From positions 1 to 24,981 of the IMG/VR virus record IMGVR_UViG_3300017749_000124: a DNA stretch of 24,981 nt. One strand, given 5' to 3'. Below the pieces are notes generated by a model that worked only from the letters and a program-made list of their open reading frames with translations, was not told the origin of the DNA and ran no database searches. The stretch's first letter is position 1. Each line of letters starts with the position of its first letter. Origin of the DNA: a virus. Both the position numbers and the translations under genes were made by a program. Of the stretch, positions 1 to 24,981 are shown piece by piece.

Positions 1-23
1 AACATGTGTTAAACAAACATTAG

Positions 24-200
24 ATGTCAAAAAAGTACTTCAACATAGTTCAGATACTAGGATGGAGTAGAGAAGAACAAGTAGAACATAAGGTTTGTTC
101 GGTTAAAGATTGTAAAAGATGGGGAGGATTCGGAATAAATGAGAATAGCCGCTATTATTTTGTATGTGGTAAGCATTATTCAGGGCAAAAAGCATCCTGA
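24..200 (+). CDS. Small zinc-finger-like protein (58 aa), unknown function
   Basis: An intact 58-codon frame starts at the ATG directly after an in-frame TAG (21-23), so no longer start exists. That TAG abutting ATG also suggests the tail of an upstream gene ending at 23. The protein has a C-X4-C pair at residues 25-30 (CSVKDC) and a C-X2-H pair at 48-51 (CGKH), separated by a Trp/Gly/Arg/Tyr-rich loop. This spacing is typical of small zinc-binding treble-clef or ribbon modules; zinc binding is inferred. I do not recognise a family. It lies upstream of the late structural operon, pointing away from the left edge, and its end faces a minus-strand gene 22 bp away. It could belong to the end of an early or middle gene block. 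Confidence 0.6.
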   Translation: MSKKYFNIVQILGWSREEQVEHKVCSVKDCKRWGGFGINENSRYYFVCGKHYSGQKAS

Positions 201-222
201 AAAAGACGAACACGAAGTATAC

Positions 223-384
223 TTAGCTTCTGATAGATATTGAGTTAGGGAATCTTCCGTCTTGCTTATAAGATACATAAGCAAATCGCCAATCATCACC
301 ATATTCTGCTTTACAGAACTGTATTATTCCATCATCAAGATGTACAGAGGGCTTTTTAAAAATATTTTTTAATAAATTAAGCAT
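223..384 (-). CDS. Small hypothetical protein on the minus strand (53 aa)
   Basis: The minus strand carries an open frame from the ATG at 384-382 to TAA at 225-223. The product begins MLNLLKNIFKKPSVHLDDG and continues with an aromatic, charged stretch (AEYGDDWRFAYVSYKQDGRFP) that reads like real protein rather than an AT-rich shadow frame. It is convergent with the 58-aa gene, ending 22 bp from it, and does not overlap any plus-strand gene. Its upstream side opens into the 258-bp gap in front of the late operon, so that gap may hold divergent promoters. There is no convincing Shine-Dalgarno sequence (only AAGAA next to the ATG). Family and function are not recognised. It would be the only minus-strand gene in the window. 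Confidence 0.4.
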   Translation of the reverse strand: MLNLLKNIFKKPSVHLDDGIIQFCKAEYGDDWRFAYVSYKQDGRFPNSISIRS

Positions 385-417
385 TTCTTATAGGATAATT
401 AATATATAGGTTCTGAT

Positions 418-465
418 AAAGCTAGTGTTATTTAGGCAAAGCTATTATGTTATTTATTCAAAGCT
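418..465. repeat. Imperfect tandem (iteron-like) repeat, three AAAGCT copies
   Basis: AAAGCT occurs at 418-423, 438-443 and 460-465, that is 20 and 22 bp apart. The first two units also share the following TGTTATTTA (allowing a 2-bp indel), so this is an imperfect tandem repeat of about 21 bp, close to two helical turns. Repeats of this phase can bind a protein on one face of the helix; that reading is inferred. Confidence 0.45.
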
Positions 466-477: not shown

Positions 478-582
478 TTAATGTGAATTGTTTATCTGTA
501 TTTTATATTTATATTCCTTATACAACACTTCAAAACAGGAACTTAATAGAGTTCTAGCTTGTCAGGTTATGACATGGTGTTG

Positions 583-970: not shown

Positions 971-1143
971 TGCCTAGTAAAGTAAATCAGGCTGGTAACT
1001 ATACTAAACCAAGCATGAGAAAAAGATTATTTAACAGTATTAAAGCTAGTTCTGTACAAGGAACTGCTGCTGGTAAATGGTCTGCAAGAAAGGCCCAGCT
1101 GTTAGCTAAAAGATATAAAGCAGCTGGTGGTGGATATAAGTAA
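970..1143 (+). CDS. Small basic conserved phage protein (57 aa)
   Basis: A 57-codon gene joined by TAATG overlaps at both ends. The product (MPSKVNQAGNYTKPSMRKRL at the start, KWSARKAQLLAKRYKAAGGGYK at the end) has 13 basic and no acidic residues. The pattern NxAGNYTKPxMRKxLF...KWSARKAQxLAKxYKxxGGGY is one I recognise from many phages, where it is annotated as hypothetical. It is probably nucleic-acid-binding or a minor virion protein, by charge and context only. Translation probably depends on reinitiation after the 38-aa gene, since there is no Shine-Dalgarno sequence. Confidence 0.75.
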   Translation: MPSKVNQAGNYTKPSMRKRLFNSIKASSVQGTAAGKWSARKAQLLAKRYKAAGGGYK

Positions 1144-1391: not shown

Positions 1392-1627
1392 TGGTAGCTA
1401 AAAAATATCAGAATCCATCAGGTGGACTTAATGCAGCTGGTCGTAAATATTTTAAAAACAAAGATGGTTCTAATTTAAAACCACCAGCACCCAATCCCAA
1501 AACTAAAAAGTCAAAAGGTAGAAAAAAAAGTTTTTGTGCTAGGATGTCAGGAGTAAAAGGGCCAATGAAAGATTCAAAAGGTAGACCAACTCGTAAAGCA
1601 TTAGCTTTAAGAAAATGGAAATGTTAA
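1391..1627 (+). CDS. Small basic phage protein, DUF6321-like (78 aa)
   Basis: A 78-aa product with an N-terminal NPSGGLNAAGRKYF motif (8-21), a Lys/Pro-rich middle, and a conserved end, KSFCARMSGVKGPMKDSKGR (46-65) followed by PTRKALALRKWKC (66-78). The SFCARMSGVKGPMKD..G.PTRKALALRKW signature is widespread in phages and matches what I remember as DUF6321; function unknown. The two cysteines (49 and 78) bracket the conserved C-terminal block. TAATG overlaps at both ends. Together with its three upstream neighbours it forms a run of four basic proteins with few or no acidic residues. Confidence 0.75.
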   Translation: MVAKKYQNPSGGLNAAGRKYFKNKDGSNLKPPAPNPKTKKSKGRKKSFCARMSGVKGPMKDSKGRPTRKALALRKWKC

Positions 1628-1875
1628 TGACAGATAATTTTGTACGACCACCAGATTTTGATCCTATTGATGCTGAAGTAGATATAGATAATAGAAAACA
1701 ATTTCCTCTATCTTTTCAAGATAGACAAAGATTAAGAAAAATAGTTAAGAAAGTACACTTAAAATTCTTGCCAGAAGAACTCTTAACTGATAAAGAAGCT
1801 GATAAGATGATTGAAGCATTAGGGCCAAGCGTTAGGGAGAAGTTACTGATTGAGCATATTGCAAAAGTCAAGTAA
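1627..1875 (+). CDS. 82-aa protein upstream of TerL; possible small terminase subunit
   Basis: I chose ATG 1627 over the in-frame ATGs at 1615 and 1621 because it makes a TAATG overlap with the preceding stop, as at every neighbouring junction. The product has an acidic N terminus (MTDNFVRPPDFDPIDAEVDI), then a basic helix (QDRQRLRKIVKKVHLK) and a helical C terminus (LLTDKEADKMIEALGPSVRE). Its place directly before, and coupled to, the large terminase is where T7-type phages keep a small terminase subunit (T7 gp18 is 89 aa). No helix-turn-helix or other diagnostic motif is clear, so the terminase role rests on position and size alone. Confidence 0.7.
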   Translation: MTDNFVRPPDFDPIDAEVDIDNRKQFPLSFQDRQRLRKIVKKVHLKFLPEELLTDKEADKMIEALGPSVREKLLIEHIAKVK

Positions 1876-3389
1876 TGGAATTTAATTATAAACCAGATGG
1901 ACAAACACTTAGAGGCTTTCTTAAATCAAACGATTTCTTTAGAGGACTTCGAGGCCCAGTTGGAAGCGGTAAGTCAGTTGCTTGCTGTATTGAAATATTT
2001 AGAAGGGCACTTCAACAATCTAAAGGTGTTGACGGAAGAAGAAAATCTCGTTGGGCTGTTATCAGAAACACGAACCCTCAATTAAAAACTACAACAATTA
2101 AAACATGGCTGGATTGGTTTCCAGAAAATACATTTGGGCCATTTAGATGGTCAGTTCCGTACACACATCAGATTACTATTGGTGATGCAGACTTAGAAGT
2201 TATCTTTCTTGCATTAGATAGACCAGAAGATGTAAAGAAACTACTATCATTAGAGCTAACTGGTGTCTGGGTGAATGAAGCAAGAGAGTTACCTAAGTCA
2301 ATTATTGATGCTTGTACTATGCGTGTAGGTAGATTCCCCTCTATGCGTGATGGTGGTGCATCATGGTATGGTGTTATTGCTGATACAAATGCACCTGAAG
2401 AAGATCATTGGTGGGCAGTTATGGCTGGTGATGTACCAGTGCCAGATCACATACGAAAAGAAGAAGCATTGATGTTAGTCAAGCCTGATAACTGGAGTTT
2501 TCATACACAACCTTCTGCTTTATTAGAAAAAAAAGATGATAAAGGCGAACTAACTGGATATAAAAGAAATCCTTTATGTGAAAATAAAAAATTTATTACA
2601 GATGCTTACTATGAAAACATAGTCAAAGGTAAAACTAAAGGATGGATTGATGTTTATGTCATGAATAAACTAGGATCATTAGAAGAAGGTAAGCCTGTCT
2701 ATCCAAGTTGGAGTGAAGATATACATCTTAGTAAAGAAGTTATTACACCATTCCCTACTGACGTATTTATTGGTATTGACTTTGGATTAACACCAGCAGC
2801 AGTCTTTGGACAGAAGCTATCAAGTGGAAGATGGATTATCTTACAAGAACTTGTATGCTTTGATATGGGTATAGTTAGATTTACTGAATTATTAAAACAT
2901 GAAATAGCAAAAACATACAAAGGATTAACTATAGATATTTATGGTGATCCAGCTGGTGACTTTAGAGTGCAGACAGATGAAGCAACTCCGTTCCAAATAA
3001 TGAGATCACAAGGAATTAAGGCTAGACCAGCTCCAAGTAATGACGTTTCTCTGCGTATAGAAGCTGTAGAAACAGCTTTGAGTAGGTTAGTAGAAGGCAA
3101 GTCTGGTTTTTTACTAAACAATAGCTGTGTGAACCTTAAAAAAGGTTTTAATGGTGGCTATCATTATAGAAGAATACAAACATCTGGTGATCGGTATGAT
3201 GAAAAGCCAAATAAAAACAAATATTCTCATGTACATGATGCTTTACAGTATATGTTAATGGGTGCTGGAGAAGGCAAACAGCTAACAGTAGGAATATCAA
3301 CACCTAGTGCTGTAGTTAAAACTAGAGGTTGGAATATATTTGACAAAAAGAAAAAGAAATCAATATGGCAAAACAGATCAAGTTTTTAA
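1875..3389 (+). CDS. terL: Terminase large subunit (ATPase and nuclease)
   Basis: This 504-aa protein is the DNA-packaging motor. The ATPase domain shows a Walker A motif GPVGSGKS at 27-34, a Walker B strand VWVNEA at 131-136 with the catalytic Glu at 135, and the coupling motif ADTNAP at 169-174. The nuclease domain, which cuts the concatemer, has RNase-H-type acidic residues: Asp302 in GIDFG, Asp358 in YGDPAGD, and Asp455 in HVHDALQY. All motifs are intact and the length is normal. It acts at the portal vertex. It starts in a TAATG overlap and ends 25 bases inside the next gene. In T7 the terminase genes lie after the tail fibre; here they precede the portal. Confidence 0.95.
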   Translation: MEFNYKPDGQTLRGFLKSNDFFRGLRGPVGSGKSVACCIEIFRRALQQSKGVDGRRKSRWAVIRNTNPQLKTTTIKTWLDWFPENTFGPFRWSVPYTHQITIGDADLEVIFLALDRPEDVKKLLSLELTGVWVNEARELPKSIIDACTMRVGRFPSMRDGGASWYGVIADTNAPEEDHWWAVMAGDVPVPDHIRKEEALMLVKPDNWSFHTQPSALLEKKDDKGELTGYKRNPLCENKKFITDAYYENIVKGKTKGWIDVYVMNKLGSLEEGKPVYPSWSEDIHLSKEVITPFPTDVFIGIDFGLTPAAVFGQKLSSGRWIILQELVCFDMGIVRFTELLKHEIAKTYKGLTIDIYGDPAGDFRVQTDEATPFQIMRSQGIKARPAPSNDVSLRIEAVETALSRLVEGKSGFLLNNSCVNLKKGFNGGYHYRRIQTSGDRYDEKPNKNKYSHVHDALQYMLMGAGEGKQLTVGISTPSAVVKTRGWNIFDKKKKKSIWQNRSSF

Positions 3390-4005: not shown

Positions 4006-4765
4006 TCAAGGTTCATCAGCTTCAAAAGCTTCTAATGAAAAAGCAAAGCAAACAGGAGCAGCAGCAAATGTTTATGCTAAACAAAAACTAGGTATTAGAA
4101 AAACTGTTGCTGGCCCAGTACAAGGAGCTAGTGATAGTGTTACTGGATTTTATTCAACAACAAGTCCTAATCAAATGTATGGTACTGAGTATTCTACAGC
4201 AAGAAATGAATATTTAGCATCACAAGGTTTAGGAAGTGTTACAGATACTGGACAGTATAGATCATTTGTTAAAACAGATAATGGTCAAGTATCTACTTTA
4301 GAATCTCGTCAAGCTTATGAAGCATCAAGACAAGAAGCAATTCCTTTATCAAGACAAATGTATGATTCTCAACAAAAGTTTATGAAAATAGGTGGAGCTA
4401 TAGCTACTGGATTAACTGGTATGCCATCTTTTTTTACTTCAGCATATTATGCTAGCAAAAAACCATATAGCCAATATGTTGATAATTACATGAGTAAAGC
4501 AAAAACAAGTTTAAATAGAAGTAATACTAATGCTAATAAAACAACAAACAATCAACAAACAACAACTGTTAAAGATACACCAAAAGTTGCAAATGATTTT
4601 GATGCAGCTGCTAGAGGAGATCAAAGTGCTTTGCGTAGAATTGAAGCTCTATCTAGACAAAAAGAAGCTGGTAGTCCTAACAGAAAATTTTTAGTATCAT
4701 CAGCAAAAACATTTTTAGGTAGAATGCAAAGTGGAACTTTAGATTCGGATTATAATACATTTTAA
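3986..4765 (+). CDS. Unassigned Ser/Ala/Gln-rich protein before the portal (259 aa)
   Basis: I do not recognise this 259-aa protein. It is rich in Ser, Ala, Thr, Gln and Lys, without cysteine. An N-terminal helical region (about 1-40) leads to a tyrosine-rich segment (55-125), a Gly/Ala hydrophobic patch (GGAIATGLTGMPSFF, about 136-150), and an Asn/Thr-rich linker (about 174-195) before a final charged helix (about 200-255). Composition resembles minor internal virion proteins. The start ATG lies 20 bases inside the previous gene and the end forms a TAATG overlap with the portal, so it is made together with the head proteins. A head-associated or ejected protein is the best guess, at low certainty. 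Confidence 0.75.
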   Translation: MEKVLSSQGSSASKASNEKAKQTGAAANVYAKQKLGIRKTVAGPVQGASDSVTGFYSTTSPNQMYGTEYSTARNEYLASQGLGSVTDTGQYRSFVKTDNGQVSTLESRQAYEASRQEAIPLSRQMYDSQQKFMKIGGAIATGLTGMPSFFTSAYYASKKPYSQYVDNYMSKAKTSLNRSNTNANKTTNNQQTTTVKDTPKVANDFDAAARGDQSALRRIEALSRQKEAGSPNRKFLVSSAKTFLGRMQSGTLDSDYNTF

Positions 4766-6363
4766 TGCCATATACACCTTACCCAGAAACTGATGCACCA
4801 TACTCAGGTAATGATCCTAGAGTAGCTTCTTTTATAAAAAAGTTTAGAGATGCTGAATATATTTTTGATAATTGGAAAGATAAATATGAAGAAGCATATG
4901 AATACACAATGCCACAAAGGGAATCTTTTTATGAAGAAACAATAGGAGAAAGAAGAACAGATAAAATATTTGATGAAACGGCTGTAGTAGGAGTACAAGA
5001 ATTTGCCTCAAGGTTACAAGCTGGAATGGTTCCAACTTATGGTCGTTGGGCAAACTTTGAAGCTGGTTCAGAAATACCAGATGACGCAATACCAGCAGTT
5101 AATGAACAGCTAGATGCTATTACTGAATATGTATTTGAAATACTAGGTGGTTCAAACTTCAATCAAGAAATACATGAAGCATTCATGGATTTAGCTATTG
5201 GAACAGCTGTTATATTAGTAGAAGAAGGTGATAGTCTTAATCCTATAAACTTTCAAGCAATACCTTTACCTAGAGTTATGCTTAATAATGGCCCTAATAA
5301 TAAAATAGATACAATCTTTAGAACTAGATATATTAATTATAATCATCTTATGACTGCATACCCTAAAGCAGAAATGTCGCCAGAAATGTTAAAAAAGATT
5401 TCAGATGATGGTCATAGCAAAGCAAAAATAATAGAAGGTGTATTTAAAGTTTACGATAAGCCTAATGAAGAAATATATAAATACTGTGTAGTTTGTATGG
5501 ATATGCAAGAAATGATTTTTGAAAAGGAATTAAAAGGTGTAGGTGCAAATCCTTATATTGCATTTAGATGGAATAAAGCATCAGGAGAAGTTTATGGTCG
5601 TGGCCCAGTGTTTAATGCTATGGCTGCAATTAAAACTACAAACTTAACAGTAGAACTCATCTTACAAAATGCTCAAATGAGTATATCTGGTATATATACT
5701 TTTGAAGATGATGGAGTAATAAATCCAGAAAATATTACATTACAACCCGGTGCTTTAATTCCTGTAGCACCAAATAGCAGAGGATTACAAGCACTTCCAG
5801 CTGCTGGTAGGTTTGATGTAGCTCAATTAATCTTAGGAGATATGAGAGCAAATATTAAAAAGGCTTTATACATGGAAACATTAGGTAGACCTGAAGGTAC
5901 ACCAATGTCAGCTACTGAAGTAGCAGAAAGAATGTCTGACCTATCACGACAAATAGGATCATCATTCGGAAGATTACAATCAGAGTTTGTAACACCCTTA
6001 CTAAGAAGGGTAATTAGAATATTAACTAAGCAAGGTAAAATACAAATACCAACAGTTAATAATAGAGAGGTAAAAGTAGTATCTACTTCACCATTATCTA
6101 AGGCACAACATCAACAAGATATAGCTGATGTAATGAGATTTTCAGAAATATTAGGAACTACATTTGGGCCAGATATGCTTAACATGGTAGTTAAACAAGA
6201 TGAAATAGCTAGATACTTAGTAGATAAAATGAATTTACCTGAAAAATTAGTAAGAACTCCTGAAGAACAACAAGAAGTAGTTTCAAGGTTGCAATCAGCA
6301 CAACAACAAGCTAATATGCAACCAAATGAGTTGGGAGAAACTACAGACCAAGAAGTCCAATAA
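4765..6363 (+). CDS. Portal protein (head-to-tail connector, T7 gp8 type)
   Basis: This 532-aa protein matches the T7-type connector in length (T7 gp8 is 536 aa) and in sequence style. The N terminus has the helix around RRTDKIFDETAVVGVQEFAS (about 63-82) followed by LQAGMVPTYGRWANFEAG, a signature of the head-tail connector family. A later stretch, YGRGPVFNAMAAIKTTN, and the helix-rich segment with EVAERMSDLSRQIGSSFGRL (about 386-405) also fit. It forms the dodecameric ring at one vertex, through which DNA enters and to which the tubular tail proteins bind. The gene starts in a TAATG overlap; its 3' end overlaps the Bbp19-like gene by 38 bases. Confidence 0.93.
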   Translation: MPYTPYPETDAPYSGNDPRVASFIKKFRDAEYIFDNWKDKYEEAYEYTMPQRESFYEETIGERRTDKIFDETAVVGVQEFASRLQAGMVPTYGRWANFEAGSEIPDDAIPAVNEQLDAITEYVFEILGGSNFNQEIHEAFMDLAIGTAVILVEEGDSLNPINFQAIPLPRVMLNNGPNNKIDTIFRTRYINYNHLMTAYPKAEMSPEMLKKISDDGHSKAKIIEGVFKVYDKPNEEIYKYCVVCMDMQEMIFEKELKGVGANPYIAFRWNKASGEVYGRGPVFNAMAAIKTTNLTVELILQNAQMSISGIYTFEDDGVINPENITLQPGALIPVAPNSRGLQALPAAGRFDVAQLILGDMRANIKKALYMETLGRPEGTPMSATEVAERMSDLSRQIGSSFGRLQSEFVTPLLRRVIRILTKQGKIQIPTVNNREVKVVSTSPLSKAQHQQDIADVMRFSEILGTTFGPDMLNMVVKQDEIARYLVDKMNLPEKLVRTPEEQQEVVSRLQSAQQQANMQPNELGETTDQEVQ

Positions 6364-7648: not shown

Positions 7649-8497
7649 ATGAGTGCATCTATAAACAATGCTTTTATTACCCAGTTTGAAGCTGAGGTAC
7701 ATATGGCATACCAAAGAATGGGTAGTAAGCTTAAAAATTTAATTCGTACAGTTAATGGTGTATCAGGTGAATCTGTTAAGTTCCAAAAAGTAGGAACAGG
7801 AGAAGCAACAACTAAAGCTAGACATGCAGAGGTTGTAGCGATGAACATTTCACACACTAACGTAACAGCAACACTTGCTGATTACTATGCATCTGACTAT
7901 GTGGATAAATTAGACGAGTTGAAAACCAACATTGACGAAAGAGCAGTAATTGCAAACAACGCAGCTTATGCTCTTGGTCGTAAGACTGACAGTATTATTA
8001 CAACAGCTATGGATTCTGCTACTAAAGTAGCAAACAATGCTGGTGCAAATGGTACAGCTGGATTAGCAACTGACATGAATGTAGCTAAATTCAAAGATAT
8101 GCAAGCATTATTTGGAACAAACGAAGTTCCTGATGATGACCAAAGATATTGGGCAATAGGCCCAAATCAATGGGGCGATCTATTAGCAGAAGATAACTGG
8201 TCAAACCTTGACTATATTGGCCCAGGTCAATTACCTTTTGCTGGAATGAACTATACAGCTAAAAGATTCTTAGGATTCTTAACTTTTGTTCACTCAGGTC
8301 TTGATACATCTGGAGCAACAGATAGACATACTATTTGTTGGCATAAATCCTCAATGGGTTTAGGCGTAGGTTCAGAAGTAAGAACTGAAGTAAACTACAT
8401 TCCTGAGAAAGTAGCTCATCTATTAACATCATACCTATCAATGGGTTCAATCTTAATTGATACCAATGGTATTCGCATACAGAAATGTGCAGAATAG
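7649..8497 (+). CDS. Major capsid protein
   Basis: A 282-aa protein in the canonical position after scaffold. It has the N-terminal SINNAFITQFEAEVHMAYQR helix, the strand KFQKVGTGEATTKARHAE, the TLADYYASDYVDKLDELKTN segment and ALGRKTDSIITTAMD helix, typical of marine podovirus capsid proteins with an HK97-like fold (fold assigned from family resemblance, not shown by sequence). Hundreds of copies form the icosahedral shell. The strong AAAGGAG ribosome binding site and upstream gap agree with the need for high expression. The stop TAG (8495-8497) is part of the Shine-Dalgarno sequence of the next gene. Confidence 0.9.
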   Translation: MSASINNAFITQFEAEVHMAYQRMGSKLKNLIRTVNGVSGESVKFQKVGTGEATTKARHAEVVAMNISHTNVTATLADYYASDYVDKLDELKTNIDERAVIANNAAYALGRKTDSIITTAMDSATKVANNAGANGTAGLATDMNVAKFKDMQALFGTNEVPDDDQRYWAIGPNQWGDLLAEDNWSNLDYIGPGQLPFAGMNYTAKRFLGFLTFVHSGLDTSGATDRHTICWHKSSMGLGVGSEVRTEVNYIPEKVAHLLTSYLSMGSILIDTNGIRIQKCAE

Positions 8498-8506
8498 GAA
8501 TAATCA

Positions 8507-9700: not shown

Positions 9701-10309
9701 ATGGCAGTAACTAAAGTAGATATAGCATCAAGAGCTTTAGTAATGGTAGGAGCTAATCCTATTTCATCATTTACAGATAATTCTACTGAAGCTTTAATTA
9801 CAAATACTATTTATGAAGAAGTAGTAGAATCTACATTATCAGAATGTTCATGGCGTTTTGCTATGGGCCAAAAACAATTATCTTTGTTAGCTGATGCACC
9901 AACATCAAGATATGAATATGCATATCAGATGCCAGCAAACCCAGCTGTTATTACTATAGTAACTGTAACTAATAATGATAATCCAATACCCTATTCAAGA
10001 TATGAAGATAAAATTTATTTAAATGGCTATGGATCTGAAAGTAAAGTTTATATGGACTATGTATTTAGACAAGATGAATCTTTGTTCCCAACTTATTTTA
10101 GACTAGCTTTAATATATAGATTAGCTAGTGCATTTGGTGGATCATTAGGCAGAGATGCATCTATGATTAATGCTTATGAAGCTAAAGCAGAAAGACAAAT
10201 TATTAGAGCAAGAAATATAGCATCTCTAGAAACTACTACTAAAAAGTTAAATACTACTAGATTTATAGCTGAAAGAAGGAGCAGTCGAAGTGGACTTGTT
10301 AATTACTAA
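9701..10309 (+). CDS. Tail tubular protein A (T7 gp11 type)
   Basis: The 202-aa product is close in length to T7 gp11 (196 aa) and has the family layout: VDIASRALVMVGANPISSFT (6-25), then a helix with VVESTLSECSWRFAMGQKQL (36-55), a beta-rich middle with RYEYAYQMPANP, and the C-terminal helix with LIYRLASAFGGSLGRDASM. The early CxW.FA motif following a leucine-rich helix is characteristic of these gatekeeper/adaptor rings, which bind under the portal. ATG directly abuts the preceding TAA, and its own stop forms TAATG with tail tubular B, so the two tail proteins are coupled. Confidence 0.88.
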   Translation: MAVTKVDIASRALVMVGANPISSFTDNSTEALITNTIYEEVVESTLSECSWRFAMGQKQLSLLADAPTSRYEYAYQMPANPAVITIVTVTNNDNPIPYSRYEDKIYLNGYGSESKVYMDYVFRQDESLFPTYFRLALIYRLASAFGGSLGRDASMINAYEAKAERQIIRARNIASLETTTKKLNTTRFIAERRSSRSGLVNY

Positions 10310-13055: not shown

Positions 13056-15217
13056 TGGCATTAACATCAGGCGAAAAACAAAATAAAGCAACAGTAAGCT
13101 CTATACAGAGCAGAATGGGCGTAGTAGATGCAGCTAATGTAGGGAATCCTTTAGGATTAGCAGCTGAAGGTGCATCTAAGGTATTAGATGTATTTGCAGA
13201 ACGTCAAGCTAATATAGAAGAAGTATCTTGGAAAACAGATTTTAAATTAAAAAGTAGACAAGCATTATTAAATCTTTCAAGAGTACATTTTGAAGATCCT
13301 GATGGTTTTACAAAAGCAACTAATAGCTATAGAGATTCTCTTGTTAATGAAGCTCCTAATAGATTTAAAAATTATGCAAAAGAATTTATAGGGAATATTG
13401 CATTTGAATATGGAGATCAAATTTGGCAAGAAGCTAAATCACAAAAAACTATATTAGAAATTAGTAATTGGTCAAATAATTATAAAGATTTTATAGCACA
13501 AAGAAATTCAATTATAATGACTAAACCACCTAGTGATTTTCAAGATTACTGGACACAAAGTTTATTACCTGAAATGGCAGATACTATGGCTGATTATGAA
13601 AAGTTATATAATTCATATGATGCAAGTATACAATCACAACTAGCATCACAAAAAGGATTTGGAACGCCAGAAGAATTTAATAAAGCATTAGAATTAGGTT
13701 TTGAAACACAAAGATTAATTAGTTTAACAGCTAAGGATTTAAACAATGCACAAGCATTAGATACAGCATACATACAACAAATGGGTGGAATACCAGATAA
13801 CTATGAAACAGAAGTTTCTAAAGTTTTAAAACAATATCAACTATGGGGAACAAAATATATAGATAAACCTAATCACGATACAGATGATGCTAGTGTATAT
13901 GTAAATACTAATAGAGAAGATAGAGCTGGTATTATTACAAGTGTAGAAAAATACATAGATTCATGGAATGTTGTAAATGAAAAGAATATAAAAAAACAAG
14001 ATATAATATTAAGTCAAGATAAAGAAGTAGTAGTGCAAAGCACTGTTGCTGAAATAGAAGATGGATTTACTAAATCTACTGAAGAAATAAGAGTAATAGC
14101 AATTAATAATAATTTAACACAAGATCAACTTGATAGATTAATAGATATAAATACTTTAACATTACAAGTTCAAGACCTATCTGGACAAATTAGTTCTTAT
14201 GGAAAAAACGAATCAGGTAATTATCAAGTTAATGCAAATATGACTGAATTTGATGTTAATAGTTTAATTTTTAATAAAACAAAATATTTAAATGATTTAG
14301 GTATAGAAATAACACAAGAAGAACTAAAAGATAAAGCTATAATGCAACAAATGTTTTCAATTATTTCTACTACTCCTGAATTTGACGATAATATTACACA
14401 AAGTGTTTTTAACAATATGGATTTATCTACTGTAGTAGCATCAGGAGCAACAGGCAACAATATTGTAACTAATTCATTAGTAGAACTATCTAGGGTATAT
14501 AGTCAAGTTCCTAGTGTATTAGAAAACTATTTTAGTAGTATGGATAGTTTTAACTTTGAAGTACAAGCAGATAGACAAGAATTAAGAAATATGGCTGAAT
14601 TTGCAAATAATCTTTCTAAAACAAAAGGTAGACCATTAGCTTTTAGTGATAGTGAAGGTAATAAAAATTTTGCAAACTTAGTAGAATTACATGAAGAATT
14701 GCAAAAAGTAGGTAGATTAAATATGAATATAGCAAATCTTACAGAAAAACAAATTAATGATTTAAACTTAGATGTAGGTGAATATGAAAAGCTAATTATA
14801 GAAAAATGGGTTAGTAAAACATATCCAGAACAAACTGTACTAGATGAAAAAATTGAATTTATGAATAGCGTTATAGGAGAAAGTGGTACAGACTTTAATA
14901 GAATGATGGAAAACTTTTTTGAAGATCAACAAGAAGATGGCCCATGGTGGGGGTTGGGTTTTGTAGATACAGATTTATTAACTGGTAATAATGAATTTAA
15001 TATTATGGGTAGAGATAAAGATTTACAGCCATCTTTTAATTTAGTTATGCAAGAAGCTGGTGAACAAATATTTGTAAGAGTGGCTAGTATGTTTGATAAT
15101 CAAACATATAAAGTATTAATGACGGAAGATAGTATTAAAAAAGCATTTGAAAAACAATTACCTTACATTCTTAATACTATTAGAACTATGGGTTATGGAT
15201 ATGATGAGAATATATAA
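13055..15217 (+). CDS. Internal virion protein (T7 gp15-like)
   Basis: The 720-aa, mostly helical, charged protein lacks signal peptide and membrane segments. Its N-terminal part (GLAAEGASKVLDVFAERQAN, about 34-53) and the following WKTDFKLKSRQALLNLSR resemble internal core proteins of marine podoviruses. Size and position correspond to T7 gp15 (747 aa), part of the core stack above the portal that moves into the host and builds a periplasmic channel. The gene starts and ends in TAATG overlaps, between the gp14-like and lysozyme-bearing genes. No enzyme motif was found. Assignment is from order and size more than from sequence. Confidence 0.8.
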   Translation: MALTSGEKQNKATVSSIQSRMGVVDAANVGNPLGLAAEGASKVLDVFAERQANIEEVSWKTDFKLKSRQALLNLSRVHFEDPDGFTKATNSYRDSLVNEAPNRFKNYAKEFIGNIAFEYGDQIWQEAKSQKTILEISNWSNNYKDFIAQRNSIIMTKPPSDFQDYWTQSLLPEMADTMADYEKLYNSYDASIQSQLASQKGFGTPEEFNKALELGFETQRLISLTAKDLNNAQALDTAYIQQMGGIPDNYETEVSKVLKQYQLWGTKYIDKPNHDTDDASVYVNTNREDRAGIITSVEKYIDSWNVVNEKNIKKQDIILSQDKEVVVQSTVAEIEDGFTKSTEEIRVIAINNNLTQDQLDRLIDINTLTLQVQDLSGQISSYGKNESGNYQVNANMTEFDVNSLIFNKTKYLNDLGIEITQEELKDKAIMQQMFSIISTTPEFDDNITQSVFNNMDLSTVVASGATGNNIVTNSLVELSRVYSQVPSVLENYFSSMDSFNFEVQADRQELRNMAEFANNLSKTKGRPLAFSDSEGNKNFANLVELHEELQKVGRLNMNIANLTEKQINDLNLDVGEYEKLIIEKWVSKTYPEQTVLDEKIEFMNSVIGESGTDFNRMMENFFEDQQEDGPWWGLGFVDTDLLTGNNEFNIMGRDKDLQPSFNLVMQEAGEQIFVRVASMFDNQTYKVLMTEDSIKKAFEKQLPYILNTIRTMGYGYDENI

Positions 15218-16764
15218 TGACTAAAGAATTAGTAAAATATCCTATGTTTAAAACTTATATGTCAAAAGGTTTATCAGAAGATGAAATTAAAACAGATGCA
15301 ACACTGACTATAGTTAATAGAGGATTAAATATGACTGATGGAGAAAGAGCAGCACTTGGATTAAGTTCTGATTTTTTTACAGCTGAAAATATACTAGGTC
15401 TTATGGATAACAAAAGAATTAGATTTGATTATGATGCAACAAGTATAGGTGATCCAACATATAGAATATCTATGGATTTAGATGGAGATGGAATATTTAT
15501 GGCATTAAATAATCCTAATAATCCAGAATCAGGGTTTAAACCTGAAGCTAATAGAGAATTAAATGCATCATTAACATTATCTGGTGTTAGATCAGACTTC
15601 CAAAATACAGCATGGCAAAATTGGAAAAGTCAAAATATTAAAGCAGATACATTTTTCAAAACATATGGATTTGCAAATATAGAAGAACAACCATTAGTTA
15701 TGCAAACATTAAAAGGTATGTTTAACCTTGTGTATAATGGATATAACAAAGGTAAAAATGGAATAGAAGATTTAGGTAGAATGTTTAATGATATTGAATG
15801 GCTACCTGATGTTAGTATTGATATGAATACTGTAGAAAGACAATTACAAGAAAATCAAATTGCTTTTCTAACATATCAACAACAAAAAGAAGCTGGAGTA
15901 TTTGATGATAATCTAGCTACACAATTTTCAGGCAAGGAGCAAACAGCTATGGGATATCAAAATACAGCAACAAACTTATTAATGGACACTATTAACAAAC
16001 AAGAAGGTGGTTTCTATGCACAAGCATATGATTCTGGTTTTACAGGAAATAGAAACAAAACATTTAATGTTGGTACTAGAGCTGGTGGTGGTGGCCCAGT
16101 AGAAATGGTTACTGAAGGTAGTAAAATACAAAAAGCAGAATATGATCTTATGATGTCAGAAAATGGTGATCCTACTATTGGTACTGGATTATCGTTAAAA
16201 GATCCAACTGTTAAATCTCAATTAACAGAACTTGGTTACGATATTGACAAGTTATTAACTGGTGAACAAACAATTACTAGAGAAGATAACAACATTGTTA
16301 TGATGAAAATGTTAGATGATAAATTAAAATTAGTACAAAGTATTACTGGTATAGATGATTTAGCATCAAATAAAAACGCATACTTAACTGTAGCTCTAGT
16401 TAAATTAGCATATAACAGTTCTTCATGGATTGGGCCAAGATTTCAAAAAGCATTAAATCAGTTTATTAAAACTGGTGATATGAAATACATTGGTAGTTTT
16501 GGAAGTTATAAAGAAGGCACAGATGAGTTTTACTCAGGTGCAACTGCTGCTGGTGTTAAACAATATGAACCAGCATTGTTAAATGAATTATGGAATGATG
16601 CAGAAGGACAAGCTGCAATAGGATATGGTGGATTTAGAACTATGATGAGAGATGTAGCAGAATATATTACTGCATGGTCACAAGGTCAAATGACTTATTT
16701 TCCTGATTTACAAGTTACAACATCACCACAAATACAAAAAAAGAATAAATCTATATTAGACTAG
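15217..16764 (+). CDS. Internal virion protein with GH24 lysozyme-like domain
   Basis: Residues about 255-430 of this 515-aa protein read as a T4/P22-type (GH24) lysozyme: Glu263 in KQEGGFYAQAYDSG, Asp272 nine residues on (the same E-to-D spacing as T4 Glu11-Asp20), Thr320 in DPTIGTGLSL (cf. T4 YTIGIGH, Thr26), then TVALVKLAYN and FQKALNQFIKTGD as in the family's later helices. Between Asp and Thr lie 42 extra residues, including a Gly-rich turn. Residues 1-250 are unlike any lysozyme and are probably a virion-anchoring part; the C terminus has a Trp-containing helix. T7 carries its peptidoglycan-cutting domain at the N terminus of gp16; here it is a separate gene in front of the large internal protein. 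It starts in TAATG and its stop abuts the next ATG. Confidence 0.82.
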   Translation: MTKELVKYPMFKTYMSKGLSEDEIKTDATLTIVNRGLNMTDGERAALGLSSDFFTAENILGLMDNKRIRFDYDATSIGDPTYRISMDLDGDGIFMALNNPNNPESGFKPEANRELNASLTLSGVRSDFQNTAWQNWKSQNIKADTFFKTYGFANIEEQPLVMQTLKGMFNLVYNGYNKGKNGIEDLGRMFNDIEWLPDVSIDMNTVERQLQENQIAFLTYQQQKEAGVFDDNLATQFSGKEQTAMGYQNTATNLLMDTINKQEGGFYAQAYDSGFTGNRNKTFNVGTRAGGGGPVEMVTEGSKIQKAEYDLMMSENGDPTIGTGLSLKDPTVKSQLTELGYDIDKLLTGEQTITREDNNIVMMKMLDDKLKLVQSITGIDDLASNKNAYLTVALVKLAYNSSSWIGPRFQKALNQFIKTGDMKYIGSFGSYKEGTDEFYSGATAAGVKQYEPALLNELWNDAEGQAAIGYGGFRTMMRDVAEYITAWSQGQMTYFPDLQVTTSPQIQKKNKSILD

Positions 16765-19700
16765 ATGGGTGAGTTTTCTACAGTAGGAGATATTAGTCAA
16801 GCAAAACCTAATATTAGTGGTAGACCAGATCCAACTGAGCCATTAAATTATTTTCAAGATGTAAGAGATGTTGGTGCTGGATGGGCAGACGAAAATATTT
16901 TTGGTTTAGCTTTTAAATACATTGTAGATGCTTCTGTTGCACAAGATGATACAGAATTTGTTACTGACAAAACATATAACATATTTTTTGATAGACAATT
17001 AAAAGGACTTGAGCCTTATATTGGAAACTTCCTACACAGTAAAAGTAAAAAACATACAAGTAAATTAATTAAAGACTTTATAGAAGATAGTAAAAAAGCA
17101 AATGGTTCACCTTCATATATTGTAGGTAGAGTATTAGGTGGACTAACTGATCCATCAAGTTTGTTTATGTTTACCAAAGCTGGTAGTTTTATGTTTACTG
17201 GTACTAGATTAATGAGATCAGGTAAAGTTGGTGGATTAATAACTACAGAAGAAATGGTTAAACAAGGTTTAAGCACTACAAGAACGTGGGAAGAAACAGC
17301 CTTAATATCAGCTAGTGGTTTTATATTACCAGCATTATTCCCAGCTATAAACAATAAATTAGCTGGTAAACAGTTTGATGATACGGCTAGTAAGTTAGAT
17401 AATATGGACACACATTATTCTAATAGTCAATATGTAGGTGGTGGTATTTATAAAGAAGGATCTGTTGGTGCTGGTGCTACACAGCCTATAAGAACAGAAG
17501 CAGAGTGGATTAAAGCAAATCAAATTAAACCTACTGGTATGGGTTATCTTGGAGAAAAATCAGGATTTACTCCATTATTTAGAGTGTTAGATAAAGGTGG
17601 ATTAGAAGAACAAGATTTTATTACTACAGTATTAGAAAATCCATTACTAACTAAAGGTAACTTTGAAGGCGTACCTTCTGCTCCTACTATTGAAAGAAAA
17701 ATTAAATCAAGACATTACATGATTAAAATAAGTGATGATGCAGTTATGTCTGAATATAATGCTTATTTAAAAAGATTAGGTAAAAACGAACAAAAATTTT
17801 TAGAAAAAGTTGTTAATACTAAAATTGGTACAGGACTTGATAAAACTGGTGTTATGACACCGAGAGAGTTTTCTTCAGCTGTTACAAGAGCTAGACTAAA
17901 TCCAGATGCACCAGCTATTCCTGAAGTAAAAGCAGCTGCAAAACATACAGAAGATTTGTTTTATGCTCCATTAGGTAAAGAATATCAAGAAAGTGGTATT
18001 TCTATAGCATGGCATAAATATCAAATTGATAGACTTGATATGTTTATTAAACAAATGGATGGTAGTATTGAAGGTAGAAAAGCAGTTACAAATAAGAAAA
18101 AACTACAAAAACTAGAAGATTTAATAGTATTAAGAAGAAAGCTTAAAGCTAAATTAACTTTAATGGAAACTAAAGGTATTCATCTTAGAAAAAATTACAT
18201 TAACCCATTATATAAAAGAGATGCTATTGATGCTAATCCAGAACTATTTAAACAAATAATGAGAGAAGAATTAGAAAAGTTAGCTGCAAGAAATCCGTCA
18301 TTATTAAAAAAAAGCCCTAATATGACAAAAGCACAAGAAGAAGCATGGATGATGAAAAATGGAAATTCTCCAGATATTATTGATGATATTATAGAATCAT
18401 TTATGCAGTATCAACCTACTCTTAGACTTAGACAAATTGATGACGTATTAAATGAAATACCAGAAGAAGCATTGGGAGAAGTTAATAAAATATCTAGTAG
18501 ATTTCTAGGTAGAGATTTAAATATTGATTATACTAGATTAATGAAAGAAGGATTTATGGAAGATGATATAATGCTTCTACAAAGACATTACTTTAATCAA
18601 GTAGTTCCTGACATAGAATTAACAAAAGTATTTGGTGATCCTATGGGATATGGAACACGTTGGTCACCAGATAACAGTTATCAACAAGGTATAATACAAA
18701 TTAGTGATGAAATGCTAAGAAAAAACAAAAAGTACGATATGTATTATAATCAAAGATTTGATGAAAATGCTTTGCCATTAAGTAGTTTTTTAACAAAACA
18801 ACAAATTAAAAATCTACAAGATATAGATGCTTCTATACATTTAGTTAGAGGAACATATGGTTTGCCTTATGATCCTAATAGAACCTTTAGTAGAGGTTTA
18901 AGAATGATGAAATTATACAATGCTACTACTATGCTTACTGGTATAGCACAAGTAGTAGATACAGCTAGATTAGTTATGATTAATGGTATGACTAAAACAT
19001 TTAAAATACAAACTGAAATGTTTCAAAGTGGTATGGCTAAAGAAATATTAAAGATGTCTAAAAACTCTACACAATTAGGTGGTGAAGCTTTAGACATGAT
19101 AGATAGCTCAAGAGCTATGGGTATGTATGGATTAGAAGATGCATTCGGTGTATTTAATAAAATGGAAAGAGGTATGAGTAAAGTAGGTAATGTTTATTTT
19201 ACATTCTTAAATGCAAGTAACCCTTGGAATGCCTCAGTTAAAACAATGGCTGGATTCTTTAATGGTACTAGAATAATAGAAAATGTAGAAAAAATAGCAT
19301 TAGGTAAACCTATTTCTAAATTAAATAGAGCTAGAATGAACTTCTTAGGTATTACAGATGATATTGCTAGAGAAATATATAAACAATATCAAAAACATGG
19401 TGTAGGTAAAAATGGTAAAATATCTAGTAAAGCAGATGGAAATGAATTTAAACATATGCGTGTAGCTAATAGTGATGCTTGGGATGACACACCTAAAGCA
19501 AAAGAAGCTGCTGAAATATATCATCAAGGATTATCTAAACAAGTTAATGTAGATATTGTTACTCCAAGTAAAGGAGATGTACCATTATGGGCCAATACAG
19601 AAATGGGTGGTGCTATATCACAATTTAAAAAATTTGGTGCAGCGGCTACACAAAGAATGTTAATGCGTGGATTACAAGAAAAAGACACAAATTTTATGCA

Positions 19701-20133
19701 AGGTATATTGTTGTTAATGGCTGGTGGTATGATGGTAGATGCCTTTAGACAAAAACAATTTGGTAGAGATTATAGTAAGAAACCACTTGGTCAAAAATTA
19801 GTAGATGGATTTGATAGATCAGGTTTAGGTGGTATTTTTTCAGATATTAATAATGCTATTGAAAGATTAGGTAATAATGAAATTGGTTTAAGACCATTAT
19901 TAGGTGGTAAAAAACCATACGGCACTTACAAAGATATATTAAATAATCCTATTCCTGATGTATTAGGGCCAACAGCTAGTCAAATATCTAATATATCAGA
20001 TATTATGTGGACATGGGGTACAGGTAAGTACAATCATCACACAGCTCGTAATGTGCGTAGACTAGTACCATTCCAGAATGTATGGTTTTTGGATTCACTA
20101 TTTGATAAATTAGAAAAAAATGTATTAAGATAA
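16765..20133 (+). CDS. Large internal virion (DNA ejection) protein, T7 gp16-like position
   Basis: At 1122 aa this is the largest product, mostly helical and Lys/Asp-rich, with several moderately hydrophobic segments (for example SGFILPALFPAI around 185-196 and QGILLLMAGGMMVDAF around 982-997). It follows the lysozyme-bearing gene with TAG directly abutting ATG, and precedes the tail fibre, exactly where T7 has gp16 (1318 aa). I see no transglycosylase motif, which agrees with that activity being in the upstream gene. Likely role: core protein ejected into the cell to form the inner-membrane channel and pull in DNA. Sequence alone gives no catalytic clue; role inferred from context. Confidence 0.82.
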   Translation: MGEFSTVGDISQAKPNISGRPDPTEPLNYFQDVRDVGAGWADENIFGLAFKYIVDASVAQDDTEFVTDKTYNIFFDRQLKGLEPYIGNFLHSKSKKHTSKLIKDFIEDSKKANGSPSYIVGRVLGGLTDPSSLFMFTKAGSFMFTGTRLMRSGKVGGLITTEEMVKQGLSTTRTWEETALISASGFILPALFPAINNKLAGKQFDDTASKLDNMDTHYSNSQYVGGGIYKEGSVGAGATQPIRTEAEWIKANQIKPTGMGYLGEKSGFTPLFRVLDKGGLEEQDFITTVLENPLLTKGNFEGVPSAPTIERKIKSRHYMIKISDDAVMSEYNAYLKRLGKNEQKFLEKVVNTKIGTGLDKTGVMTPREFSSAVTRARLNPDAPAIPEVKAAAKHTEDLFYAPLGKEYQESGISIAWHKYQIDRLDMFIKQMDGSIEGRKAVTNKKKLQKLEDLIVLRRKLKAKLTLMETKGIHLRKNYINPLYKRDAIDANPELFKQIMREELEKLAARNPSLLKKSPNMTKAQEEAWMMKNGNSPDIIDDIIESFMQYQPTLRLRQIDDVLNEIPEEALGEVNKISSRFLGRDLNIDYTRLMKEGFMEDDIMLLQRHYFNQVVPDIELTKVFGDPMGYGTRWSPDNSYQQGIIQISDEMLRKNKKYDMYYNQRFDENALPLSSFLTKQQIKNLQDIDASIHLVRGTYGLPYDPNRTFSRGLRMMKLYNATTMLTGIAQVVDTARLVMINGMTKTFKIQTEMFQSGMAKEILKMSKNSTQLGGEALDMIDSSRAMGMYGLEDAFGVFNKMERGMSKVGNVYFTFLNASNPWNASVKTMAGFFNGTRIIENVEKIALGKPISKLNRARMNFLGITDDIAREIYKQYQKHGVGKNGKISSKADGNEFKHMRVANSDAWDDTPKAKEAAEIYHQGLSKQVNVDIVTPSKGDVPLWANTEMGGAISQFKKFGAAATQRMLMRGLQEKDTNFMQGILLLMAGGMMVDAFRQKQFGRDYSKKPLGQKLVDGFDRSGLGGIFSDINNAIERLGNNEIGLRPLLGGKKPYGTYKDILNNPIPDVLGPTASQISNISDIMWTWGTGKYNHHTARNVRRLVPFQNVWFLDSLFDKLEKNVLR

Positions 20134-23217: not shown

Positions 23218-23567
23218 TGGCACATTTCGCAAAATTAGGAGTTGGAAACATTATTGAAAGAGTGGAAGTGGTATCAAATGATATTGCTACAAACGAACAA
23301 GCTGGAGTAAATTTTTTAAATACTTTATATGGCACTAGAGATACTTGGAAACAAACATCTTACAATGGCACTATAAGAAAAAACTTTGCTGGTGTTGGTT
23401 ATAGTTATAACCAAACAAAAGATGCTTTTATTCCACCCAAACCTTTTAACAGTTGGACATTAGATGAAGATACTTGTCTTTGGGAAGCACCTGTTGCTTA
23501 TCCTGATGACGGACAATTTTATCAATGGAATGAAACAAACCAAGAATGGGAGATAATTAATGACTAG
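23217..23567 (+). CDS. Fibre-associated conserved marine phage protein (116 aa)
   Basis: The product begins MAHFAKLGVGNIIERVEVVS and carries WKQTSYNGTIRKNFAGVGY (42-60), DAFIPPKPFNSWTLDEDTC (67-85), LWEAPVAYPDD and a final W.W-type motif. This combination is one I recognise from many cyanophage and other marine phage fibre loci, where the gene is unassigned or called tail-fibre related. A short beta-rich domain acting as fibre tip, connector or assembly factor is plausible. It starts in TAATG with the fibre gene and overlaps the next gene by 8 bases, so all three fibre-region genes are co-translated. Confidence 0.82.
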   Translation: MAHFAKLGVGNIIERVEVVSNDIATNEQAGVNFLNTLYGTRDTWKQTSYNGTIRKNFAGVGYSYNQTKDAFIPPKPFNSWTLDEDTCLWEAPVAYPDDGQFYQWNETNQEWEIIND

Positions 23568-24606
23568 AGCAAGGGATTTAGCAAATTTTATAAATGGCAT
23601 AGACGCAAGTAAAATTATATCTGGTACTTTTGCAGATGCTAGAATAGCAGCATCTAATGTTTCTCAACACGCATCATCTTTTGATGATAACAATCTTGTT
23701 AATGACATATCTACTTTAGCATTAAGAGAAGCTACTAGAGAAAATCTAGTAGGATATAATACTAATTCTAGTTCTGTAGATGTTTTTCAAGACGCAACCA
23801 AATTAGATGCTCTTTCTAATAGTTCTAGAAATACAAGTGAATATGTTTCAAGCCTTACATCAGTTATATCTCCTAAGAGATATTGGAGAGCATTTAAAAC
23901 TTCAGGTGCTGTATCTGGAAGTTATCATAGTATACTAAAAGTATTTAGTGGTGCAGACCATTCCACACAGGAAACTGTAACTGCTGGAATGTTATCATCA
24001 ACTGGCGTAACTGTAACTAGTGGTTTACAAAACTTGTTAGATGGAGATGCTTCAACAGTAGCCTTTCACACTGATACTGCTCCTGTTGGCTCTACTGTAA
24101 CTATTGACTTTGGTTCAGGTAATGAAAAAGCATTAACTAGATGGTTCTTTGATTATAATTCACTAACAAATGCTTCATGGAGAGCTGAATGGTCGTCTGA
24201 TAATACTAACTGGACTGCTGTTACAGTAGGAATACAAATAAGTAATTTCATGGATTGGGATGCAGTTACAACTGACACATTTAATGCGACTGGAAACTTT
24301 ACTGGTGCAACAATAACAGCACCTAGTTCTGTTTCTAAAATGGGTGGTATTTTTACTTATCAAGATACTTCTGGAACAAACTCATTAAACACAGACATAA
24401 TTTTACAGCTATCAGCAGATGGTGGTTCTAACTTTACCACTACAACTTTGACAGCTTTGCCAGACTTTTCTACAGGAATTAAAATGGCAAAAGCAAATGA
24501 TGTAAGTGTTACTGCTGGTACATCATTAAAATATAAAATCCTCTTTGCTAATCAAAGTAGTGGTAGCAAAGAAGCAAGAATTAGAGGAGTTAGTTTACAA
24601 TACTAA
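23560..24606 (+). CDS. Second fibre-type protein with discoidin-like (F5/8C) domain
   Basis: The 348-aa product starts MTRARDLANFINGIDASKII and SGTFADARIAASNV (21-34), a segment like the ASGTVPDARFPATLP repeats of the main fibre, so it is probably a short fibre or fibre-docked protein. Residues about 105-225 resemble an F5/8 type C (discoidin) carbohydrate-binding domain: LLDGDASTVAFHT, VTIDFGSG, then WRAEWSSDNTNWTAV (cf. the usual ALDGD..T.W, I.VDLG, Y.I.YS.DG..W). The C-terminal part is beta-rich and ends KYKILFANQSSGSKEARIRG. A role in binding surface sugar is inferred. No Shine-Dalgarno sequence; start 8 bases inside the preceding gene. Confidence 0.82.
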   Translation: MTRARDLANFINGIDASKIISGTFADARIAASNVSQHASSFDDNNLVNDISTLALREATRENLVGYNTNSSSVDVFQDATKLDALSNSSRNTSEYVSSLTSVISPKRYWRAFKTSGAVSGSYHSILKVFSGADHSTQETVTAGMLSSTGVTVTSGLQNLLDGDASTVAFHTDTAPVGSTVTIDFGSGNEKALTRWFFDYNSLTNASWRAEWSSDNTNWTAVTVGIQISNFMDWDAVTTDTFNATGNFTGATITAPSSVSKMGGIFTYQDTSGTNSLNTDIILQLSADGGSNFTTTTLTALPDFSTGIKMAKANDVSVTAGTSLKYKILFANQSSGSKEARIRGVSLQY

Positions 24607-24613
24607 TAGTTAA

Positions 24614-24655
24614 ATGTGTGAGTGTTGCGAAGGTTACGACTGTATTTGTAAGTAA
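24614..24655 (+). CDS. Cysteine-rich micro-ORF (13 aa)
   Basis: ATG at 24614 opens a 13-codon frame, MCECCEGYDCICK, with five cysteines in a CxCC-x4-CxC arrangement. It fills the space between the fibre-type gene (ending 24606) and the next gene exactly, ending in the same TAATG overlap used at most junctions here, which argues it is translated and may feed reinitiation. No Shine-Dalgarno sequence is visible. Metal binding by the cysteines would be natural, but function is unknown. At this length, chance cannot be excluded; confidence rests on the junction and the cysteine density. Confidence 0.4.
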   Translation: MCECCEGYDCICK

Positions 24656-24981
24656 TGCCTAGCCTATCAGACAAAACAGAAATAGGTTTACCTCTTAAAA
24701 ACTTATTGAGTTTATTAGGTGTAACTGCTACAGCAGTCTGGGCATACTTTGGTATTATTGAAAGACTAAACAATATAGAAACTAGAGCTACTCTATTTGA
24801 AGCTGATCTTGTAAAGAACGCAGATCAAACTCCTATAGATCAGGAACAGTTTATGCTACTAGAATTTGTATCAGAACAAGTAGAAGGTATGTCAGAAGAT
24901 TTAGAAAACATGGCACATAACAAAGTAAACATTATGAGATTACAAGCTGATATGGAAAAAGCATTAGAAAATATAGAAGAA
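24655..24981 (+). CDS. Membrane-anchored coiled-coil protein, 3' end beyond window
   Basis: 109 codons are visible before the window ends. Residues 14-35 (about LKNLLSLLGVTATAVWAYFGII) form one transmembrane helix, preceded by a short charged N terminus (MPSLSDKTEIGLP) and followed by a helical, acidic part with heptad spacing (IERLNNIETRATLFEADLVK and onward) that is probably cytoplasmic or periplasmic coiled coil. Similar proteins (SDKTE...P.KNL, then WAYFG..ERL, then TP.DQEQFMLLEF) lie after the fibre genes in marine podoviruses. A holin- or spanin-like lysis role is possible from location and topology but unproven. It starts in TAATG with the micro-ORF. Confidence 0.8.
   Translation, partial: MPSLSDKTEIGLPLKNLLSLLGVTATAVWAYFGIIERLNNIETRATLFEADLVKNADQTPIDQEQFMLLEFVSEQVEGMSEDLENMAHNKVNIMRLQADMEKALENIEE

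Follow-up and report, generated by a model that had tools for sequence, protein, structure and literature searches.

Lytic phages eliminate the recognition sites of orthodox type II restriction-modification (R-M) systems, according to the accessible text of Rusinov et al. (2018; PMC6286503), and the available part of a report on Staphylococcus phage phiAGO1.3 attributes the wide host range of that phage to missing R-M sites (PMC6346686). Among pelagiphages, GANTC is depleted in about half of the 33 phages covered by a 2022 methylome study (PMC9516812); the accessible text of that study describes a depletion that clusters by phylogeny, raises SAR11 R-M as a possibility, reports no R-M in its Pelagibacterales metagenome-assembled genomes, and states that R-M is unreported in SAR11 genomes save for a few common defence systems. 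Here we describe a virus sequence, IMG/VR record IMGVR_UViG_3300017749_000124 (24,981 bases, G+C 33.0%; "the window" hereafter means this whole stretch), that lacks the AvaII-type site GGWCC (W, A or T). The window is apparently a fragment of a podovirus and is kin to pelagiphages by sequence: its DNA is 80% identical to that of HTVC035P across 399 bases, and its portal protein is 55% identical to that of EXVC031P Hodr, the record host of both phages being Pelagibacter HTCC1062. The hosts of this ocean phage are probably SAR11-type bacteria. We consider it very likely that this phage lineage has been selected at the DNA level against GGWCC by AvaII/SinI-type restriction in some, likely SAR11-type, hosts, with an opposite pressure against GGCC and repeated switching between the two.

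As in the phages described in PMC6286503, a type II site has been almost fully removed from a double-stranded DNA phage genome; here, however, each Gly-Pro pair sets two overlapping sites against each other, giving exclusive states and repeated switching, which the accessible text of that paper does not describe. The likeness to the GANTC case lies in a group-dependent depletion of a motif in pelagiphages, but the motif is GGWCC or GGCC, sister phages differ, and some genomes from a SAR11-type family contain R-M loci; within the window, GAWTC is not depleted (39 observed, 34 expected) while GASTC is (0 observed, 8.7 expected). Missing restriction sites would bear on host range here as they do for phiAGO1.3, although two-state switching, a feature of the phages studied here, is not mentioned in the available part of that report. 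Site avoidance is known; forced two-state switching and putative AvaII-type restriction in SAR11 relatives appear to be new, and our search of the open-licence literature found no account of pelagiphages avoiding GGWCC, of a conflict at Gly-Pro, or of SAR11 bacteria with AvaII-type R-M.

GGWCC and Gly-Pro codons in the window

The window contains no GGACC and no GGTCC, as stated in a preliminary description made from the sequence alone, and it contains nine GGCCC and ten GGGCC. A Markov count of 5-mers, which that description had suggested as a check, bears out the zero, but the maximal-order model expects just 6.4 GGWCC sites (z -2.5), so that the absence is modest by that model alone; the deficit of CCWGG under the same model is larger (2 observed, 22.1 expected). 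We also used a synonymous-codon null, in which codons are permuted within each gene while amino acids and per-gene codon counts stay fixed. By this measure 13.75 to 14.1 sites are expected (standard deviation about 1.5), close to the dozen or so predicted beforehand, and GGACC/GGTCC has the lowest z (-9.7) among the 484 5-mers tested. GGWCC is not the sole missing word in the window, the deficit of GCAGG/CCTGC being bigger in counts (0 observed, 38 expected).

All 16 Gly-Pro pairs in the window use GGG or GGC (eight each), whereas GGA and GGT make up 558 of its 630 glycine codons (GGT 344, GGA 214) and GGC and GGG the other 72 (50 and 22, respectively); the chance probability of 16/16 GGS (S, G or C) is 8e-16. 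The preliminary description had reported this codon use correctly but had treated it as a stronger, internal control. About 13.2 of the 13.75 expected GGWCC sites lie on a Gly-Pro codon boundary, with just 0.6 expected off it, which makes the Gly-Pro codons and the absence of the site one observation, not two. For the same reason, the window by itself is compatible with a translational codon-pair bias, in which the ribosome or tRNAs would disfavour GGA or GGT before a proline codon, and cannot tell such a bias from restriction. All 19 GGCC in the window fall within GGGCC or GGCCC, and 16 of these sites are at Gly-Pro; other contexts, where 3.6 are expected (open reading frames (ORFs) of at least 100 amino acids), contain no GGCC.

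Two exclusive states among relatives

We compared the window with a panel assembled from three portal-protein scans of viral contigs, 11 loci from genome bins, and the records of HTVC035P and Hodr (both partial). Each portal scan keeps the best 80 loci and the sample is redundant, so the frequencies of states given below are not population estimates. From 216 loci plus the window, we removed L001, itself part of the window, along with four duplicate contigs, leaving 212 sequences, one of which has fewer than three Gly-Pro pairs and was left unclassed. ORFs of the relatives were called by an in-house script, not curated, and most loci are partial. Classes were assigned by the GGS fraction before proline: at least 0.85 for loci that avoid GGWCC, at most 0.25 for those that do not, and between for the rest. 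Of the 211 classed loci, 92 avoid GGWCC, 105 do not, and 14 lie between. The distribution is bimodal: 89 loci are all-GGW and 87 are all-GGS. Under a binomial model based on the remaining glycines of each locus, the expected number of all-GGS loci is 0.3, and none of 2,000 draws gave more than four.

Given that class is defined by Gly-Pro codons, the independent test is the occurrence of GGWCC elsewhere. The 92 avoiding loci (987 kb) hold six GGWCC in total: five, one and none in frames 0, 1 and 2, against 524, 33 and 48 expected. Off the Gly-Pro boundary (frames 1 and 2) there is thus a single site where 81.5 are expected, and the same is seen in ORFs of at least 200 amino acids (1 versus 45.8) and in 34 de-replicated representatives (1 versus 42.4). 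What is avoided is therefore a DNA word rather than a codon pair: the comparison with related phages, which the preliminary description had proposed, places the depletion at the DNA level, and a bias confined to the codon boundary would not produce it.

The 105 non-avoiding loci carry GGWCC at a normal frequency (750, 40 and 39 in frames 0, 1 and 2, against 694, 37 and 58 expected; 829 versus 789 overall). These loci purge GGCC, with 19 occurrences outside GGNCC against 255 expected, and 33 GGSCC against 142.5; among 31 representatives, GGCC outside GGNCC occurs five times against 78.6 expected. Since a Gly-Pro pair is always encoded by GGN CCN, every pair holds either GGWCC or GGCC, and a phage that keeps its Gly-Pro pairs cannot purge both words.

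Switching between states

We inferred a quick maximum-likelihood tree of the portal protein for 65 representatives (34 avoiding, 31 non-avoiding), using protein columns because the Gly-Pro codons of interest must not build the tree. At least 16 changes of state are needed, 14 of them forced by starred branches; the figure of 16 is approximate, since some state labels rest on three to five Gly-Pro pairs (e.g. L106, L191). Despite weak clustering, the tree rules out GGWCC avoidance as a clade trait with a single origin.

Close relatives in opposite states show how the change occurs. Sisters L191 and L181 (94.5% DNA identity) differ in W/S class at 4/4 shared Gly-Pro glycines but at 2/77 other glycines, and at 6/344 of their other four-fold sites, glycines included. 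Sisters L128 and L127 (93.5%) differ at 5/5 shared Gly-Pro versus 2/69 other glycines, and the window and L012 at 13/13 versus 24/229. We compared 19 opposite-state pairs; in 16 of them no shared Gly-Pro has the same class, and the remaining three differ at 4/5 (L128/L125), 2/3 (L106/L105) and 9/10 (window/L016). By comparison, five same-state pairs differ at 0/13, 0/7, 1/13, 1/10 and 1/5 shared Gly-Pro. Lineages have switched state repeatedly, and each switch is concerted: the codons of every, or almost every, shared Gly-Pro pair change synonymously.

These comparisons bear on the possibility that GGWCC is missing through compositional chance or a mutational bias in an AT-rich genome. The low Markov expectation for the window would favour such an account, but GGWCC is as frequent as expected in relatives whose composition is similar, and the Gly-Pro third positions of sisters flip while their other four-fold sites hardly do. 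We reject this explanation, which seems to us barely credible.

Pelagiphage isolates and phage-encoded genes

Of 29 Pelagibacter phage records with a portal match, six isolates were examined, Hodr and HTVC035P being counted in part only. In Greip, HTVC028P, HTVC204P, Lederberg and HTVC035P, Gly-Pro is always GGW and no GGCC was counted in ORFs. Hodr has no GGW and nine GGS at Gly-Pro, and no GGWCC where 9.8 are expected.

The phage itself might set its state, for example through a phage-encoded nuclease or methyltransferase (MTase) specific for GGWCC or GGCC, with avoidance serving as self-protection. A gene for a 132-amino-acid, Lys-rich protein in the Hodr group would fit, being present in 17/18 GGWCC-avoiders and 4/14 GGCC-avoiders with the region covered; the protein (L194:1086-1481) and its homologues match no Pfam family. 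This association is confounded by clade, however, and is the best of many clusters tested, uncorrected, and none of the 28 members of the protein cluster come from the window's own group. Moreover, a blastp search of panel ORFs of at least 100 amino acids found nothing homologous to the SAR11-family C5 MTases or to the AvaII-like restriction endonuclease (RE) described below, although gene absence is weak evidence here because most loci are partial. We regard a phage-encoded cause as unlikely. Two GGCC-avoiding isolates, relevant to such a cause, have an annotated putative (DNA) methylase of about 140 amino acids (Greip, L264:25285-25707; Lederberg, L267:22398-22829).

Codon use and R-M loci in SAR11-type genomes

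Among 289 genomes, the sole match to a SAR11 16S probe was G212 (1.2 Mb, 29% G+C), whose 16S region holds all four SAR11 probes tried; it is one genome, not known as a host of the window phage. In 260 kb sampled from G212, Gly-Pro is encoded by 104 GGW and 33 GGS codons, a normal rate, and GGWCC occurs 127 times against 135 expected. A host sharing the Gly-Pro bias was the finding that the preliminary description had said would point to translation; this one SAR11-type genome is unbiased. Together with the absence of GGWCC off the codon boundary, and with sisters at 93-95% identity that prefer opposite codons at the same sites, the codon use of G212 leads us to reject codon-pair bias, which we consider highly improbable.

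We searched genomes of the same family as G212 for R-M genes. In 197 genomes, 41 matched a C5 MTase, 34 of these above the curated cut-off. A scan of 20 proteins from around 20 C5 MTases gave four nuclease-family matches, to RE_Eco47II, RE_TdeIII, RE_Bsp6I and HNH_2. We take RE_Eco47II and RE_TdeIII to be GGNCC families, and RE_SinI (PF09570) to be a GGWCC family. RE_SinI was found in 4/397 genomes of the family (1/197 in a smaller draw), at 113.8-125.4 bits against a cut-off of 22, in a scan whose 14 control genomes were all without the family and so gave no positive control. An Alphaproteobacteria-wide scan of 289 genomes for RE_SinI gave one marginal match (22 bits).

At all four loci the RE gene is convergent with a C5 MTase gene, their ends overlapping. 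The MTases are 83-85% identical to that of G486, while the REs diverge, with 36-54% identity to the G486 enzyme. In a comparison with PDB, the G486 RE matches AvaII (E 6.6e-26). It keeps the AvaII catalytic residues E123, D147, Q161 and K163 (alignment-based numbering), and H108, M112 and E115, which are credited with the preference for A or T at the centre of the site (roles as given in the available part of PMC7337904); the other three REs have the same residue pattern by alignment to the G486 enzyme. At the positions of AvaII N116 and S171, the G486 enzyme and two of the other REs have different residues, the likeness of these bacterial enzymes to AvaII being one of homology. The loci resemble AvaII/SinI R-M systems (PF09570; structures 6S58, 6S48 and 6G3B) in pairing this RE family convergently with a C5 MTase and in their catalytic and W-reading residues, and GGWCC is the likely specificity of all four REs. 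The search for GGWCC methyltransferases in bacteria that was suggested at the outset thus leads to a C5 MTase with an AvaII/SinI-type RE, of predicted GGWCC specificity, in these few genomes.

A non-orthodox host defence, such as a BREX- or DISARM-like system guided by methylation, could also recognise GGWCC. Indeed, PADLOC scores the MTase with DrmMII and Druantia models too, if below two type II MTase models. Nevertheless, GGWCC is a pseudo-palindromic type II site (that of AvaII; available part of PMC7337904), the loci are simple pairs of MTase and RE bearing AvaII active-site residues, and phages are reported to eliminate the sites of orthodox type II systems but hardly those of types I, IIG and III (accessible text of PMC6286503). 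We see only a small chance that such a defence is responsible, and continue to favour AvaII/SinI-type restriction.

On the GGCC side, the nearest PDB relative of the L237 MTase is M.HaeIII, in a match confined to the catalytic core and C-terminal end that leaves out the target-recognition part; the L239 MTase is 81.5% identical to that of L237 (only L237 was compared with PDB). The convergent neighbours of these two MTases are alike (27% identity, E 2e-8) and belong to no named Pfam family. These features hint that L237 and L239 may be candidate GGCC R-M loci.

Two C5 MTases adjoin at SAR11-family loci L248, L249, L251 and L254, and at L250 and L255; at L248, L249 and L251 (three genomes), both MTases are 96-99% identical. 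We also attempted host identification through portal relatives in genome bins, but the 11 loci are scattered over unrelated taxa and were read as misbinned contigs. The bin labels of these loci (L084-L094) include Opitutae, Gammaproteobacteria, Euryarchaeota and Rhodobacterales, among others; they are likely misbinned phage contigs.

Discussion

The preliminary description suggested that a restriction system specific for GGWCC, within the host range, selects against the site. This proposal is supported by the absence of GGWCC off the Gly-Pro boundary, the unbiased codon use of G212, and the AvaII/SinI-type loci in its family. We propose that in some hosts, most likely SAR11-type, an AvaII/SinI-type type II enzyme would cut unmethylated GGWCC. 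Phages meeting this enzyme would fix GGG or GGC before proline, retaining GGCC only in its GGSCC form. A GGCC-specific system would exert the opposite pressure, under which related phages would fix GGA or GGT before proline and purge GGCC. The type II pressures would alternate, with a GGWCC enzyme in some hosts and a GGCC enzyme in others.

Several observations weigh against this reading. First, 14 of the 211 loci are in neither state, with mixed Gly-Pro codons; such lineages may be changing state or may face neither pressure. (The mixed loci include L104, L107, L108, L198, L199, L203, L209 and seven more; three of them, L089, L092 and L093, originate from genome bins.) Second, GGWCC-avoiders are partly depleted of GGCC outside GGNCC (59 versus 147 expected in 34 representatives), a deficit that would not be expected if a single enzyme were simply at work. 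It is possibly a leftover from recent switching. GGSCC off Gly-Pro is near expectation in GGWCC-avoiders (38 versus 42); we considered that protective methylation might allow them to tolerate GGSCC, the counts being small. Third, AvaII-type R-M is present in just 4/397 family genomes, though 92/211 loci avoid GGWCC, and we found no link between the window phage and the bacteria with AvaII-type R-M. Fourth, we found no GGCC nuclease in the family: RE_HaeIII and RE_NgoPII were each above cut-off in 0/197 genomes, with one sub-threshold RE_NgoPII match. Fifth, state is weakly clustered on the portal tree. Shuffled labels average 22.0 changes, and 3/500 shuffles need as few as 16; the tie between state and kinship is thus only weak. 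Lastly, five of the six isolates examined, Hodr among them, were isolated on HTCC1062, yet Hodr alone avoids GGWCC; isolates from this strain are in both states, so state does not follow isolation host.

Our data indicate strong alternating restriction pressure on these phages, with candidate enzymes located in SAR11-type family genomes. More broadly, we think it reasonably likely that Gly-Pro pairs force two incompatible anti-restriction states, that SAR11-type phages have toggled often between them, that the state of a phage records the enzyme of its recent hosts, and that R-M exerts major selection on the phages of bacteria hitherto regarded as having none. The Gly-Pro conflict is a clean natural experiment, in which a simple count across the genome would tell from which of the two host enzymes a phage has been escaping, and it shows that the genetic code constrains the sets of sites open to avoidance.

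Genes and sites of the window

Window proteins match families for TerL (phrog_2), portal (PF12236, 306 bits), capsid (PF19821), tail proteins (phrog_394 and phrog_376) and an internal virion protein (phrog_342). The sites discussed above are listed in Table 1.

Table 1. Gly-Pro codon pairs and other GGSCC sites in the window
Feature	Position	Strand	Basis
Window, apparent pelagiphage-like podovirus fragment, no GGACC/GGTCC	1..24981	.	encodes TerL, portal, capsid, tail proteins, internal virion protein
GGCCC off Gly-Pro (GGCC at 1092)	1092..1096	+	site count
Gly-Pro GGG CCA, small ORF 1391-1627	1559..1564	+	codon count
Gly-Pro GGG CCA, small ORF 1615-1875	1822..1827	+	codon count
Gly-Pro GGC CCA, TerL	1953..1958	+	codon count, family match
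Gly-Pro GGG CCA, TerL	2136..2141	+	codon count, family match
Gly-Pro GGC CCA, ORF 3986-4765 (no family match)	4112..4117	+	codon count
Gly-Pro GGC CCT, portal PF12236	5290..5295	+	codon count, family match
Gly-Pro GGC CCA, portal	5602..5607	+	codon count, family match
Gly-Pro GGG CCA, portal	6166..6171	+	codon count, family match
Gly-Pro GGC CCA, capsid PF19821	8159..8164	+	codon count, family match
Gly-Pro GGC CCA, capsid	8219..8224	+	codon count, family match
GGGCC off Gly-Pro (GGCC at 9866)	9865..9869	+	site count
Gly-Pro GGG CCT, tail protein phrog_376	11017..11022	+	codon count, family match
Gly-Pro GGG CCA, tail protein phrog_376	12253..12258	+	codon count, family match
Gly-Pro GGC CCA, ORF 13055-15217 (no family match)	14939..14944	+	codon count
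Gly-Pro GGC CCA, ORF 15217-16764 (no family match)	16093..16098	+	codon count
Gly-Pro GGG CCA, ORF 15217-16764	16432..16437	+	codon count
GGGCC off Gly-Pro (GGCC at 19590)	19589..19593	+	site count
Gly-Pro GGG CCA, internal virion protein phrog_342	19966..19971	+	codon count, family match

Other missing words

GCAGG/CCTGC is absent from both strands of the window, the expectation of about 38 under the synonymous shuffle lying mostly at Ala-Gly and Pro-Ala boundaries; that the word is missing in both orientations points to a cause at the DNA level. It is strongly depleted in the best 80 portal relatives, and in HTVC028P (0 versus 30.5 expected), but not in Hodr or HTVC035P. Further words absent from the window are GAGAC/GTCTC (9.7 expected), CAATTG (11), AGATCT (8.5) and GCGC (6). 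Relatives and isolates lack other combinations of words, in a barcode-like manner.

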